Below, in pieces: positions 10,973-27,552 of a stretch of 32,413 nucleotides of DNA. Below the pieces are notes generated by a model. The model was given only the letters and a program-made list of their open reading frames with translations, did not search any database and had not been told where the DNA came from. The stretch is from Deltaproteobacteria bacterium. Its GTDB lineage: Bacteria > Desulfobacterota > Dissulfuribacteria > Dissulfuribacterales > QOAL01. Numbering within the stretch: position 1 is the first letter of the stretch; each line of letters starts with the position of its first letter. The stretch is taken from the NCBI GenBank assembly GCA_026992735.1, contig JALWYO010000134.1, positions 1 to 32,413 on the forward strand, written 5' to 3'. A program made the translations under genes and the position numbers.

Positions 10973-11295
10973 GGCCAGTTAAAGATAATATCATGTTTTG
11001 GTCATTTGTATATAAATTTATGCCGCTTTTTTAAAGCCTATGGGGCAGACTTTATCTATTTTAATCTTTTCAACCAGCTATGGCGGCGTTACTATGAGAT
11101 CCTGATGTATCTGTTCTCGGAATCTCGTGCCCGTCCGGTATTTCAGCATATTGCAAACAAATAATAAGGCGGTTACCGGGGACAGGTGAGCTTGAATTTT
11201 GGGCCGGTCTTGTTTAAAGGCCGCTTACAGAATGGGGATATAAACAGTAAAGCCCATTGGAACCTGTGATCAGTTACCAAATAAAGACGATTGCC
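10973..11295. other. Intergenic region between CDF and ferredoxin genes
   Basis: These 323 bp separate divergent units and should hold both promoters; none could be assigned confidently. The first 100 bp are AT-rich. From about 11170 there is GGTTACCGGGGACAGG, of a type seen in extragenic repeats, then the dispersed block at 11245-11277. The ORFs crossing this stretch look like chance frames. Confidence 0.4.
11245..11277 (+). repeat. 33-bp dispersed repeat, 11-kb copy
   Basis: A block beginning CAGTAAAGCCCATTGGAACC and ending GATCAGTTAC matches 31 of 33 bases of the reverse complement of 23891-23923. Weaker similarity extends about 25 bp further upstream (CGCTTACA and following bases). It ends 18 bp before the ferredoxin ATG, so it lies in the leader or promoter of that unit. 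Confidence 0.75.
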
Positions 11296-14898: not shown

Positions 14899-15549
14899 AT
14901 GGCGATTATTATTGCATTTGTGGCCATAGTTTTGAGCATCTTTGGTCTCCTTGCCTATCAGCAGCTTGCGTCTCTCAGAGAAGAGTTCCAGGAGCTGAAG
15001 GATGCTGTAGAATCCGGGCAGCTTAAGGGCCCAAAGGGTGATCCAGGGCCTCCTGGCAGGCAAGGGCCTCCAGGGCCAAGGGGTGAGAAGGGCGAACCTG
15101 GGCCACAGGGTCCACAGGGTGAACCAGGACAGCAGGGCCCGCCGGGTCCGAAGGGTGAACAGGGCGAGCCGGGGCCGCAAGGACCTCCAGGTGAACCAGG
15201 TCCCCAGGGTGAGCCAGGGCCGCAGGGACCTCCAGGTCCTCAGGGACCGCCGGGTGAGAAGGGCGAACCAGGTCCGCAAGGTCCCAAGGGTGAACCCGGG
15301 CCACAAGGGCCTCCGGGGCCACAAGGGCCTCCAGGCGAACCAGGTCCGAAGGGTGAGCCTGGGCCACAGGGACCTCCAGGTCCGAAGGGCGACAAGGGCG
15401 AGCCAGGGCCACAGGGTCCCCAGGGTGAGCCGGGGCCGCAAGGACCTCCAGGTCCAAAGGGTGAGAAAGGTGATCGTGGGCCAAGGGGTCCAAGAGGAGC
15501 CAAGGGCGCTGCAGGCGGTAAGGCCACCAAGAAGAAGAAGGCTGAATAG
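14899..15549 (+). CDS. Membrane-anchored bacterial collagen-like protein
   Basis: The 216-residue protein has an N-terminal hydrophobic segment (residues 2-19, [18 protein letters not shown]) that looks like an uncleaved signal anchor. A short amphipathic helix follows ([19 protein letters not shown]), which could nucleate a trimeric coiled coil. Then come exactly 55 uninterrupted Gly-X-Y triplets (residues 44-208). The tail is basic: ATKKKKAE. The triplets are dominated by [12 protein letters not shown] and GEK, with many Lys-Gly-Glu/Asp pairs, which in bacterial collagens stabilise the triple helix without hydroxyproline. A strong AAGGAGG lies 5 bases before the ATG. The anchor plus rod suggests an outward-facing fibre from the inner membrane, though the orientation is not proven. 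No partner gene is evident. Confidence 0.92.
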
Positions 15550-23768: not shown

Positions 23769-24248
23769 GATAGAAAATCCGCCAGCAAGGTATGTAAAAA
23801 GTTTACTGAACATTGCGGTCAAGGGAGCCTGCCAGGACGGGTATCATTATTTTGCAAGTAAGTTATCATGGGATTCAAGAAAAAGTAAAAGTAACTGATC
23901 ACAGATTCCATTGGGCTTTACTGTATATTTCCCTTTTTGTAAGCGCTCACAGTCGTACTCCCTGTACTTCAAGCGCCCGCCAACACAGCAGATGCGGAGC
24001 CCTGTGAGCGCTTACAAGTAAAAAAATGCTTTCTGTTAGGTATCATACATGTTTATTTCTTGTTACTATCCTCAATTTTTATTAATATTAACAAGAATAA
24101 CAAGATGGGCCGAAAAATTTGAATCTTCCAGCAGTTTGCATGTCGGCGCTCTCGGTCGGTCCTTGCGGACTGTGTGGCCCGCTTCGCAAGCTTGTGCTGA
24201 ACTCTAAGCAGAAAAGTCCGCATTGTTGAAAGGTTTGTATTCTATAAT
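23769..24248. other. Repeat-rich intergenic region upstream of the sphingolipid cluster
   Basis: These 480 bp separate two divergent units and carry no supported gene. Within them are a dispersed 33-bp block (23891-23923), a large hairpin with 16-bp arms (23937-24017), an AT-rich stretch (24018-24110), and 8-bp inverted arms TGCGGACT/AGTCCGCA (24164-24171 and 24215-24222). TATAAT directly abuts the aasR ATG. Confidence 0.55.
23891..24017 (-). repeat. Composite structured repeat: 33-bp block plus 16-bp-arm hairpin with MITE-like core
   Basis: Three parts are visible. Bases 23891-23923, read in reverse, match 31/33 of 11245-11277. Bases 23937-23952 and 24002-24017 are perfect 16-bp inverted repeats (TTGTAAGCGCTCACAG). 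Between and partly overlapping them, 23950-23997 matches about 40 of 48 positions of 27085-27131 inside the MITE (shared GTACTTCAAG, GCCCG, CAACA, AGCAGAT). The arms differ from those at the MITE copy while the core is kept. Confidence 0.75.
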
Positions 24249-26048
24249 ATGAAATTATCTCAAGTAGTTGCATCATCCCCTGCTAAAGGGAAAACATATT
24301 ACAAAGATACTACGAAACCAGTCAAAACGCCAACCCGCAATACTGTTTCTGTCAGGCAGGGTGATTTTAAGAACCTGGCAGAGGCCCTGGATTATGCTGC
24401 TGCCGGTCAGACTGGATACAATTTCTATTCAAGGCGTGGCAGCCTGTACCGGGCCATGCCCTATTCTGCGCTTCGTCATGAGGCCCGTATCCTGGCCAGA
24501 AAATTGCTGTATCTCAAGGTGCCCAGGGGGGCTTGCGTGGCAATTGTGGCAAACACCCACCCGGATTTCGTGCGTTTTTTCTTTGCCTGTCAGTATGCCG
24601 GGCTTGTTCCAGTGCCGCTTCCAATCGTAATGCATATAAATGGTGCAGATGCCTATGTGCAGCAGATATCCAGGTTGCTTGATATCTGCAAGGCCAGCAT
24701 GGCCGTGGCCACCAGCGAGTTTTTTAGCTACCTGGAGAGGGCTTGCGGGAGCCATGGTTTGAAATCTCCTTTTCTGGGAAAACCGGAGGATTTTGATGCA
24801 TTGCCTGAATCCAGCGCACAACTGGAACCCCTTGGGCAGAATGAGCTTGCCTATATCCAGTTCACATCCGGCAGCACCAGGTTCCCCAAGGGCGTGATGA
24901 TTACGCAGGATGCAGTGTTTAGCAATCTGGAGGCCATCACCAAATATGGGATTGATTGCCATGCAGGTGACAGGGCTGTCTCCTGGCTTCCATTTTATCA
25001 TGACATGGGTCTGGTAGGGCTGTTGCTTTCCACAATGGCCTCCCAGCTTTCTGTGGATTTTTTCAGCACAGCAGATTTTGCCATGAGACCTGGCCTGTGG
25101 CTAAAACTCATGTCGGAGAACAGGGGTACCATATCCTTCAGCCCCCCGTTCGGCTACGAGTTGGCATCCCTGCGGCTGAGGACGTCAGATGTAAATAATT
25201 ACGATCTGAGCTCGTGGCGTGTAGCTGGTGTTGGAGCAGAGATGATAAGGCCTGAATTGCTTGAGAATTTTGCAAAACGTCTTGAACCATGCGGCTTTGA
25301 TTCCAGTGCCTTTCTGCCATGTTATGGCATGGCCGAGTGCTCTCTGGCAGTGAGCTTTGCAAACCGCGGTGACGGTCTGCAGGTGGATAGGGTGGATGCA
25401 GAAAGGCTGGCTGCCGATAGGGAGGTGGTTCATCTTGATGAGCAGGTGTCAACGCATTCAGAAGGCAGGATCAAGACCTTTGTGAGATGCGGCAGGCCAT
25501 TGCCAGGGTTCGAGGTGGATATACGCGATTCCTTTGGCAAGCCGCTTCCTGTTGGCAAGCCCGGGATACTCTACGTCCGGGGGCCGAGTATCATGTCAGG
25601 ATATCTTGGTGATCAGGAGGCTGCCAGAGAGGTACTTTCTGAGGACGGCTGGCTTAATACCGGAGATATAGCATATATTTCCGGTTCGGATATAGTGATC
25701 ACCGGGCGCTCCAAGGACCTTATCATTATCAATGGCTGTAATATATGGCCCCAGGACCTGGAATACCTTGCCGAGACCCATGATCAGGTAAGGTTTGGGG
25801 ATACATGTGCATTTTCTGTAGCTGATGAATCCGGCAAGGAGAGGGCAGTGCTGGTGGTGCAGTGTAAAAAGATAGATGATGATGCAAAAAAAGCACTGTC
25901 CGACAGCATAAGGCGGCTTATTCTCAGGGAACTGGGCATAGAATGCCATGTGGTGCTGGTTCCAAAGAATACAATAGCACGCACCACGTCAGGTAAGCCT
26001 TCCAGAAGCACTACCAAGAAGACATGTCTTGAAAAAGGCTATGTCTGA
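24249..26048 (+). CDS. aasR: Fatty acyl-AMP ligase / acyl-ACP synthetase, AasR-like
   Basis: This adenylate-forming enzyme activates a fatty acid with ATP and would load it onto the dedicated ACP encoded downstream. The 599-residue protein has the A3 motif YIQFTSGSTRFPKGVMIT at about 202-219, WLPFYHDMGLVG at about 247-257 typical of the FAAL branch, LPCYGMAECSL, and NTGDIAYI. It also has the hinge GRSKDLIIINGCNIWPQDLE, and the C-terminal catalytic Lys in TTSGKPSRS (about 583). The hinge form fits FAAL rather than acyl-CoA ligase. Context with cerR, acp and spt matches the Caulobacter ceramide locus, hence the symbol by analogy. The ATG has no Shine-Dalgarno and is directly preceded by TATAAT; an in-frame stop at 24198 rules out an upstream extension. 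Confidence 0.88.
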   Translation: MKLSQVVASSPAKGKTYYKDTTKPVKTPTRNTVSVRQGDFKNLAEALDYAAAGQTGYNFYSRRGSLYRAMPYSALRHEARILARKLLYLKVPRGACVAIVANTHPDFVRFFFACQYAGLVPVPLPIVMHINGADAYVQQISRLLDICKASMAVATSEFFSYLERACGSHGLKSPFLGKPEDFDALPESSAQLEPLGQNELAYIQFTSGSTRFPKGVMITQDAVFSNLEAITKYGIDCHAGDRAVSWLPFYHDMGLVGLLLSTMASQLSVDFFSTADFAMRPGLWLKLMSENRGTISFSPPFGYELASLRLRTSDVNNYDLSSWRVAGVGAEMIRPELLENFAKRLEPCGFDSSAFLPCYGMAECSLAVSFANRGDGLQVDRVDAERLAADREVVHLDEQVSTHSEGRIKTFVRCGRPLPGFEVDIRDSFGKPLPVGKPGILYVRGPSIMSGYLGDQEAAREVLSEDGWLNTGDIAYISGSDIVITGRSKDLIIINGCNIWPQDLEYLAETHDQVRFGDTCAFSVADESGKERAVLVVQCKKIDDDAKKALSDSIRRLILRELGIECHVVLVPKNTIARTTSGKPSRSTTKKTCLEKGYV

Positions 26049-26108: not shown

Positions 26109-27032
26109 ATGACCAGGGTTATAGCAGTTACAGGCGCTACCGGTTTTATTGGCTCTGCCATTGTACAGAGGCTGCTTATAAACGGATTAAAAGTAAAGGC
26201 GCTTGTAAGGCCCTGTTCACGGCCTAAATGTTTCAGGCATCCGGCTGTTCTCTGGGTTGAGGGGGAACTGTCGGACAGGCGATCCCTAAAGAGGCTTGTT
26301 TCAGGTGCAGAAGCTGTAATTCATTGTGCAGGCGCAGTTCGTGGTTTCGCCAGGGAGGATTTTGATGCGGTGAATGTCTATCCTGTGCATGACCTGGTTG
26401 ACATATGCAATCATGCTCCTGGCATCTCGGCTTTTTTACTGATCTCATCACTTGCGGCCCGGCATCCTGATCTGTCTTTTTATGCCATGAGCAAACGGAA
26501 GGGCGAATCTGCCCTCAGCGCAATTAATCCGGATATACGCTGTACAGCATTCAGGCCGCCTGCGGTTTATGGGCCGGGTGACAGGGAGATCCGGCCTGTT
26601 TTAAAATTGATGAAAAGAGGCATAGCCCCGGTTATTGCCGGTCCCGGAAACCGTTTTTCCCTGCTTCACGTCCATGACCTTGCAGAGGCTGTTTTTTGCT
26701 GGTTGAATAGCAAGGTGTCCGGCGTGCATGTCTATGAGCTGCACGACGGTCTTGCAGGCGGATATTCATGGGAAGGTATTGCTGCGCTTGCCAGCCAGGC
26801 CTTGGGGAGGAGGATACTTAAGCTCCGCATACCCTTGCGTGTCCTGTCTGCTGTTGCGCTTTTCAATGTTTTCATATCCAGGTTGCATGGCACTCAGCCC
26901 ATGCTTACTCCTGGTAAGGTGAGAGAGCTTGTGCATTCGGATTGGGTTTGTGACAATAAAGCCATCTGTGAGGATACTGCGTGGAGGCCGGGTATCAGGC
27001 TGCAAGACGCTCTGAAACAGGGGCTTATATAA
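26109..27032 (+). CDS. cerR: Extended SDR oxidoreductase, CerR-like (ceramide or 3-ketosphinganine reductase)
   Basis: The 307-residue protein is an extended short-chain dehydrogenase of the NAD-dependent epimerase type. It has a nucleotide-binding motif TGATGFIGSAI at 8-18, the catalytic Ser region LISSLAA (111-117) and YxxxK as Tyr125-Lys129 in FYAMSKRKGE, followed by RPPAVYGPGDREI. By sequence alone it could be a sugar epimerase. Its place between an acyl-AMP ligase and acp-spt argues for the CerR role, reduction of the keto group in the sphingoid part, as in Caulobacter. It follows aasR by 60 bp. Its TAA stop lies in the ATAAA target duplication of a MITE, so the insertion ended exactly at the gene boundary and left the protein intact. 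Confidence 0.85.
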   Translation: MTRVIAVTGATGFIGSAIVQRLLINGLKVKALVRPCSRPKCFRHPAVLWVEGELSDRRSLKRLVSGAEAVIHCAGAVRGFAREDFDAVNVYPVHDLVDICNHAPGISAFLLISSLAARHPDLSFYAMSKRKGESALSAINPDIRCTAFRPPAVYGPGDREIRPVLKLMKRGIAPVIAGPGNRFSLLHVHDLAEAVFCWLNSKVSGVHVYELHDGLAGGYSWEGIAALASQALGRRILKLRIPLRVLSAVALFNVFISRLHGTQPMLTPGKVRELVHSDWVCDNKAICEDTAWRPGIRLQDALKQGLI

Positions 27033-27033
27033 A

Positions 27034-27267
27034 CCCGGATTATGCAGCTCGCAAGTTTGCCAAAGATGTGAGGCAGAGGGCACGCAGACGTACTTTTGTA
27101 CTTCAAGTGCCCGACAACAAAGCAGATTCGGTAAAATTGCGAGCCCCTTGCGGCTTCAAATGCCTGAGCACCTTTTGGATGAAGACACAACAGGAATAGA
27201 TGTATAGTAACTATGCAATAATTCAAATAAATTACTTTTTCCGGGCACTTGAAGTGCATAATCCGGG
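27034..27267. mobile_element. 234-bp MITE-like element between cerR and acp
   Basis: Perfect 13-bp terminal inverted repeats bound the element: CCCGGATTATGCA (27034-27046) and TGCATAATCCGGG (27255-27267). The 5 bases ATAAA occur directly outside both ends (27029-27033 and 27268-27272), a clear target-site duplication. It has no coding capacity. Inside are inner inverted arms GCTCGCAA (27047-27054) and TTGCGAGC (27137-27144) and ACTTCAAGTGCCCG at about 27100, which is inverted as CGGGCACTTGAAG next to the right end. Without it, the acp ATG would lie about 30 bp after the cerR stop. A transposase acting in trans must have mobilised it; none is in the window. Confidence 0.85.
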
Positions 27268-27300
27268 ATAAAGTAAAACGTAATGGGATAGGGGGGTGTT

Positions 27301-27552
27301 ATGAAGGCTGACAAGGAAGTCCTGGAAAAGATTATAGGCATACTGCAGCCGTTCGTTTCGGGCAGTGTAGATATAGTCCCGGGCATGGACATAGAGACAG
27401 ACCTGGCAATAGATTCCCTGAAGTCCATGGAGATACTGGCAAATCTGGAAGATACCTTTGATATATCCATTCCCATCAATGTCCTTTCCGAGGTGCGTAC
27501 TGTTGAAGACCTTGCTGTCCAGGTCCAGAAGATAATAGGAGCAGAAGGATAG
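27301..27552 (+). CDS. Acyl carrier protein of the sphingolipid cluster
   Basis: This 83-residue acidic protein has the phosphopantetheine attachment motif LAIDSLKSMEIL with Ser39. A four-helix ACP pattern continues through DISIPINVLSEVRTVEDLAVQVQKII. It is a dedicated carrier rather than the housekeeping fatty-acid ACP, judged by its position directly before spt and its divergent sequence. It would deliver the acyl group to serine palmitoyltransferase, as AcpR does in Caulobacter. A strong AGGGGGGT Shine-Dalgarno precedes the ATG. Its TAG stop overlaps the GTG start of spt by one base (TAGTG). Transcription from the aasR side must cross the MITE. Confidence 0.93.
   Translation: MKADKEVLEKIIGILQPFVSGSVDIVPGMDIETDLAIDSLKSMEILANLEDTFDISIPINVLSEVRTVEDLAVQVQKIIGAEG

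Follow-up and report, generated by a model that had tools for sequence, protein, structure and literature searches.

The hairpin at positions 23937-24017 of the DNA analysed here, a stretch of 32,413 nucleotides from a Deltaproteobacteria bacterium (the window), belongs to a non-autonomous transposon (MITE) whose insertion produces a target duplication of 8 bp. Taken as a whole, the findings are probably best explained by a MITE hairpin whose arms are the terminal repeats of the element, whose folded core is functional and whose ends are kept matched by copying from one arm to the other. The core occurs in several MITE families that differ in their ends, and its base-pairing favours one strand.

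The window hairpin and its element

Perfect 16-bp arms had been noted in the preliminary description, and they are present as TTGTAAGCGCTCACAG at 23937-23952 and CTGTGAGCGCTTACAA at 24002-24017. The hairpin has a predicted folding energy of -37.4 kcal/mol (z = -5.5), which none of 200 shuffles equalled. The outermost two arm pairs are a chance extension: the AA at 24016-24017 already belongs to the target duplication, 24015 being the last base of the element. The insertion is complete, 125 bp long (23891-24015, + strand), with the hairpin as its right half, and is bounded by identical 8-bp target duplications, AAGTAAAA, at 23883-23890 and 24016-24023 (both +). It is a member of an IS66-like MITE family, F1, relatives of which are found at about 40 places in the genome, usually with a length of 158-160 bp. 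The left terminal repeat is GTAACTGATCACAGA (23891-23905, +; family form GTAACTGATCACAGG), and 12 of the 15 positions of its family consensus are the same in the right end, GTAAGCGCTCACAGG. The left terminal repeat is followed by the left tail, or spacer, as delimited by alignment with full-length copies (23906-23938, +). The 5' hairpin arm GTAAGCGCTCACAG (23939-23952, +) is an inner copy of the terminal repeat, and the 3' arm CTGTGAGCGCTTAC (24002-24015, +) is the right terminal repeat itself. Between them lies the residual conserved core (23953-24001, +), which consists of the apical GTAC hairpin, the 3' half of stem 2 and the 3' internal loop.

Comparison with full-length copies (L002 to L020) showed that 32 nt of the 5' core, GGTGCCGCAGATGTAAGGCGGCGGGCGCGCAG, have been deleted between two CAG repeats, with the junction at 23950-23953 (+). 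The deletion, which reduced the element from 158 bp, takes out the 5' half of the inner stem. Our covariance model of the core, R1, gives this copy 27.5 bits, against 101.3 bits for a second copy in the window (see below). With half its core gone, the window F1 copy is probably a dead copy. The internal deletion, the 8-bp duplication and the roughly 40 further F1 copies had been overlooked in the preliminary description.

Full-length F1 elements are composed of GTAACTGATCACAGG, a tail of about 35 nt and a 109-nt hairpin with the end GCGCTTAC, and form two subfamilies distinguished by the tail. F1-like elements, and those of the F4 type described below, have three copies of the terminal repeat: two on the left, one outer and one inner, and a third on the right. 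Of the 62 scored F1/F4-type elements, 41 are flanked by 8-bp target duplications that differ at no more than one position, compared with 1 of 200 mispaired controls. F1 is thus a MITE family, being short (125-160 bp) and multi-copy, with terminal inverted repeats and a target duplication of constant length. About 10 solo left F1 ends also occur in the genome, one of them, lacking the hairpin, at 11233-11277 of the window (- strand); these are perhaps remnants after hairpin deletion. In one copy (L032, G000:C7) the palindrome runs into both flanks as far as the contig end; it is likely an assembly fold-back artefact and is still included among the 32 rows of alignment A1.

Elements of the IS66 family have GTAA termini. 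F1 shares with them the 8-bp duplication and GTAA-type termini (GTAAC/GTAAG), and a genome of the same taxonomic family contains an IS66 element that ends in GTAAGCGCTT, is flanked by an 8-bp duplication and has GTAAGCGCT in common with F1. F1 is mobilised in trans, presumably by an IS66-type DDE transposase, an assignment made from its ends and duplications. The IS66 transposase domain PF03050 had no match in the host genome (98.85% complete) and was present in 8 of 41 relatives. No autonomous element with the exact F1 ends was found in the host genome, and the relative yielded only the IS66 element sharing GTAAGCGCT. Because the host has no IS66 transposase, we label F1 IS66-like rather than a proven IS66 derivative; its derivation from an IS66 type is likely.

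A folded core in several MITE families

The second element of the window, F2, is distinct from F1. It is an IS1380-type MITE of 234 bp (27034-27267, +) with the terminal repeats CCCGGATTATGCA...TGCATAATCCGGG, bounded by the 5-bp target duplication ATAAA at 27029-27033 and 27268-27272 (both +). Within it lies an intact hairpin with the conserved core (27047-27144, +), matched by R1 at 27044-27147 with 101.3 bits; the fold of the element has a z of -5.8. The earlier estimate that the cores of the two elements agree at about 40 of 48 bases came close to the 38 of 45 aligned bases measured here, and the arms of the second element are indeed different, GCTCGCAA/TTGCGAGC.

A third family, F3, has the ends CCTAAATCCTGCA and 5-bp duplications. 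Exact 5-bp duplications were found in 30 of the 48 F2/F3 rows, many elements being scored on both strands, against 0.8 expected. The 8-bp and 5-bp duplications demonstrate that the hairpin is a transposition substrate, one of the readings first offered for it. Elements of the IS1380 family have ISEcp1-like ends. The ends of F2 are those of IS1380-type elements in relatives, where they flank transposase genes: in a genome of the same taxonomic family (G249) an IS1380 transposase gene lies between CCCGGATTATGCAGCA and CCCAAATTATGCAGCTCGCAG and constitutes an autonomous partner of F2, and in two other genomes (G346 and G066) single F2-matching ends stand beside IS1380 genes. Both F2 and F3 have 5-bp duplications and are classed as IS1380-derived, F2 also by its shared ends; no transposase with ends matching F3 was found. 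The fourth family, F4 (GTATCTGC..GCAGATAC), has an 8-bp duplication and the same core. The core was also found with an additional end type, GGCYGCTSAAAAAGCC, in G220 (L294, L300, L310) and G322 (L297, L313), genomes with 26-27 covariance-model hits each. The conserved core is absent from the IS66 and IS1380 loci examined in relatives, and so does not belong to the transposon ends.

A palindrome of the REP/REPIN type, mobilised in the form of single-stranded DNA by a RAYT (Y1) transposase, would also fit a strand bias such as that described below, and Y1 transposase-domain proteins are encoded in the host genome; one ORF (L322, 1465-2004) we take to be a RAYT-like Y1 transposase gene. We consider this origin highly improbable, since the clean 8-bp and 5-bp target duplications are unlike Y1 transposition and the element ends match those of DDE-transposase elements. 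No core was found within about 1.5 kb of Y1 genes, and the core hairpin is not near L322. Membership of REP/REPIN was rejected because of the target duplications and the lack of association with a RAYT gene.

A covariation analysis of all genomic copies had been proposed in the preliminary description, with a lack of further copies, or of covariation between their arms, as the outcome that would count against it; clearly neither was seen. In the host genome, the folded core is common to the four families, with 104 hits at a model E-value, itself rough, of at most 0.1, and covariation was strong. When the four families were aligned in register, a three-stem fold of 33 predicted pairs was obtained, 22 of them with compensatory changes. 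There were 171 double-change cells on the named structure against 50 in shuffles, all such pair counts being inflated by relatedness, and the covariation score was 0.517 compared with 0.207 for shuffled and at most 0.099 for slid versions. A covariance-model search of the phylum found the core in 75 of 395 Desulfobacterota genomes and 60 of 246 genera, with up to 82 copies per genome in distant genomes. In a separate scan the named hits were all Desulfobacterota, mainly Deltaproteobacteria MAGs, plus Thermodesulfobacteria and Desulfobulbaceae. Rfam gave no match in the window at its curated score and only chance-level matches for copies from other genomes. Searches of plasmid and phage collections gave no relatives, and two stricter patterns had no match among viral contigs. 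A looser pattern met a single metagenomic viral contig (L273, IMGVR_UViG_3300006217_000030), with a diverged core inside a long palindrome at a weak 23.3 bits; this match is a hint that the core may occur outside the phylum as well.

Arm copying, strand bias and neighbouring genes

Every family has arms that either are the element's own terminal repeats or are continuous with them; the F2 arm, for example, corresponds to the inner portion of the IS1380-type end (GCAGCTCGCA). The arms therefore differ with the transposase. Within single copies, one arm has been overwritten from the other: the right arms of L007 and L031 were rewritten to their own left arms, L010 shows overwriting in the reverse direction, and L013 carries the same two-base change. 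The pattern is that left by template switching, or quasipalindrome correction. Template switching is a mechanism that maintains RNA hairpin stems by multi-base compensatory changes copied from the opposite arm (PMC8794818). The arms vary about 4-5 times as much as the unpaired core and, in the larger F1 subfamily, 3.7 times as much as the tail. One copy (L037, G000:C5:1200-3300) has a hairpin core flipped with respect to the tail, which fits loop inversion by template switching. Because arm-to-arm copying is seen in recent copies, covariation alone is no proof of selection on structure. The argument of the preliminary description, that covarying arms point to such selection, is thus not supported, since the different transposon types contribute their own terminal repeats as arms and copying between arms is visible as changes private to single copies.

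It is conceivable that the covariation is purely mutational, template switching matching any palindrome and the core being shared by MITE descent or recombination, with no selected structure at all. That reading accords with multi-base changes, private to single copies, by which either arm has been converted to match the other (L007, L010, L013, L031), with arms that are mutational hot spots, with the single loop inversion and with the prediction of such changes by a published mechanism (PMC8794818). We nevertheless regard it as rather unlikely for three reasons. Double changes also occur at inner pairs apart from the arms (25-83, 39-68, 50-58); unpaired core positions are conserved across genera (0.74 against 0.59 for the arms) while the arms turn over; and pairing is biased to one strand. 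G-T cells outnumbered A-C cells by 98 to 13 in our own set and by 91 to 26 in the phylum set. Some of the sequences behind these counts were themselves retrieved with a covariance model, a method with a slight preference for G-T. The + strand was the more stable in 30 of 32 and 29 of 32 sequences, and it folded better in all 12 families compared, whose limits were drawn by eye on the basis of ends and arms. Arm copying treats both mismatches alike and repairs G-T and A-C equally, so the G-T excess speaks for selection. One-sided changes in recent copies, F4 left out, amounted to 49 against 38 distinct events, with no clear G-T excess. Individual copies thus look neutral, as expected if most are dead on arrival and the active lineages are constrained.

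The conserved unpaired bases and the strand bias suggest that the core has a function for the element. The bias fits a single-stranded, polar form, most simply RNA. A DNA cruciform or double-stranded site bound by a protein, a reading raised early on, would suit the perfect arms, the stable hairpin and the intergenic position. It is very unlikely, because a cruciform extrudes both strands and a G-T on one is an A-C on the other, so that no strand bias would be expected, whereas a strong one is observed; the arm sequence, moreover, is not conserved. Judged from the sequences, the core is probably a strand-specific module, probably of RNA, that serves the element. Covariation exceeds chance, though template switching can also cause this, and pairing is strand-specific, tolerating G-U but not A-C. 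Scans of the elements for promoters, negative or at chance level, gave no convincing internal promoter, and no terminator was found. The hairpin may be an RNA element, as had been suggested early on.

An ORF for an AMP-binding enzyme starts at 24249, 233 bp downstream, and one for an acyl carrier protein at 27301, 33 bp beyond F2. The genes around them (AMP-binding, epimerase, ACP and aminotransferase) are consistent with a sphingolipid cluster. Both copies do lie upstream of genes of this likely cluster, as had been stated, but the implied link is a coincidence, 110 of 114 scored copies being intergenic and beside all kinds of neighbours. The scored copies showed no sense-orientation bias towards neighbouring genes. 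Gene starts, taken from ORF-based gene calls, were under-represented on the hairpin side (35 vs 64 overall, p = 0.005); for the IS66-like type in our own and related genomes, those facing the hairpin side numbered 20 vs 47 (p = 0.001), and the other side was unbiased. The position of both window copies in the likely sphingolipid cluster is what would speak for a host regulatory RNA, such as a leader or UTR, of this operon or of similar genes. More than 100 copies near all kinds of genes, with target duplications, the missing sense bias, the scarcity of gene starts on the hairpin side and the loss of half the core from the window F1 copy make this scarcely credible. We take the core to have no special part to play at the sphingolipid genes and not to regulate them. 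Elsewhere in the window, 11 overlapping repeat copies in a 9-nt register (15052-15482) lie inside the ORF 14899-15549, suggesting that it encodes a protein of short amino-acid repeats.

Proposed mechanism and known systems

The arms are inverted copies of the terminal repeat placed around a conserved folded core, and the same core is present in MITEs whose terminal repeats and duplication length differ, in this genome and across the Desulfobacterota. Overwriting of one arm from the other keeps the two arms, and with them the two transposase-facing repeats, matched. We propose that the core is retained for the folding of its + strand, most likely in RNA transcripts of active elements, and that it serves the propagation of the element itself; the hairpin would also seed the fold-back that keeps the ends matched. 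A bolder version, which we put forward tentatively, sees in the core a structured, strand-specific nucleic-acid module not described before, probably RNA, which MITEs with at least two and perhaps three unrelated transposase specificities have acquired on repeated occasions and which has been retained across the Desulfobacterota. Fold-back copying nucleated by the core might then convert a single adjacent transposon end into two matching inverted ends, thereby creating MITEs and repairing their ends.

MITEs are usually viewed as transposon ends with a meaningless filling. Here the filling is a common folded core with conserved internal loops, and elements dependent on different transposases share this strand-biased core, which reaches tens of copies in a genome over a large part of a phylum. 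If strand bias and core sharing reflect function, MITEs carry a common working part, possibly RNA, hitherto undescribed. The elements also provide a natural case in which strong covariation arises partly from arm-to-arm copying, a warning for the automated discovery of structured RNAs.

Like REP/REPIN sequences with RAYT transposases (PMC2817692), these elements are high-copy intergenic palindromes; unlike them, they have target duplications and DDE-type ends, and their core was not found beside Y1 genes. F1 resembles IS66 in its 8-bp target duplications and in its GTAAC/GTAAG ends, as in the IS66 element with GTAAGCGCTT from a genome of the same taxonomic family, but its host lacks an IS66 transposase, it has a third, internal copy of the end repeat, and the IS66 loci examined lack the core. 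F2 and F3 resemble IS1380, a family with 5-bp duplications, in their ends (CCCGGATTATGCA and CCTAAATCCTGCA) with 5-bp duplications, and F2 ends flank IS1380 transposase genes in relatives; the autonomous IS1380 copies, unlike F2, have no hairpin core. Reviewed bacterial MITEs include Correia elements, ERIC, RUP/BOX and the Coxiella QMITEs (PMC10969869). The elements described here are likewise short, non-coding, multi-copy, intergenic and foldable, with terminal inverted repeats and target duplications, but here several families, which by their terminal repeats and duplication lengths fall under different transposase types, have one conserved folded core in common. As in RNA hairpins maintained by template switching (PMC8794818), the stems are matched by multi-base changes copied across; those hairpins lie in rRNA and other RNA genes, whereas here the stems are the terminal repeats of transposons.
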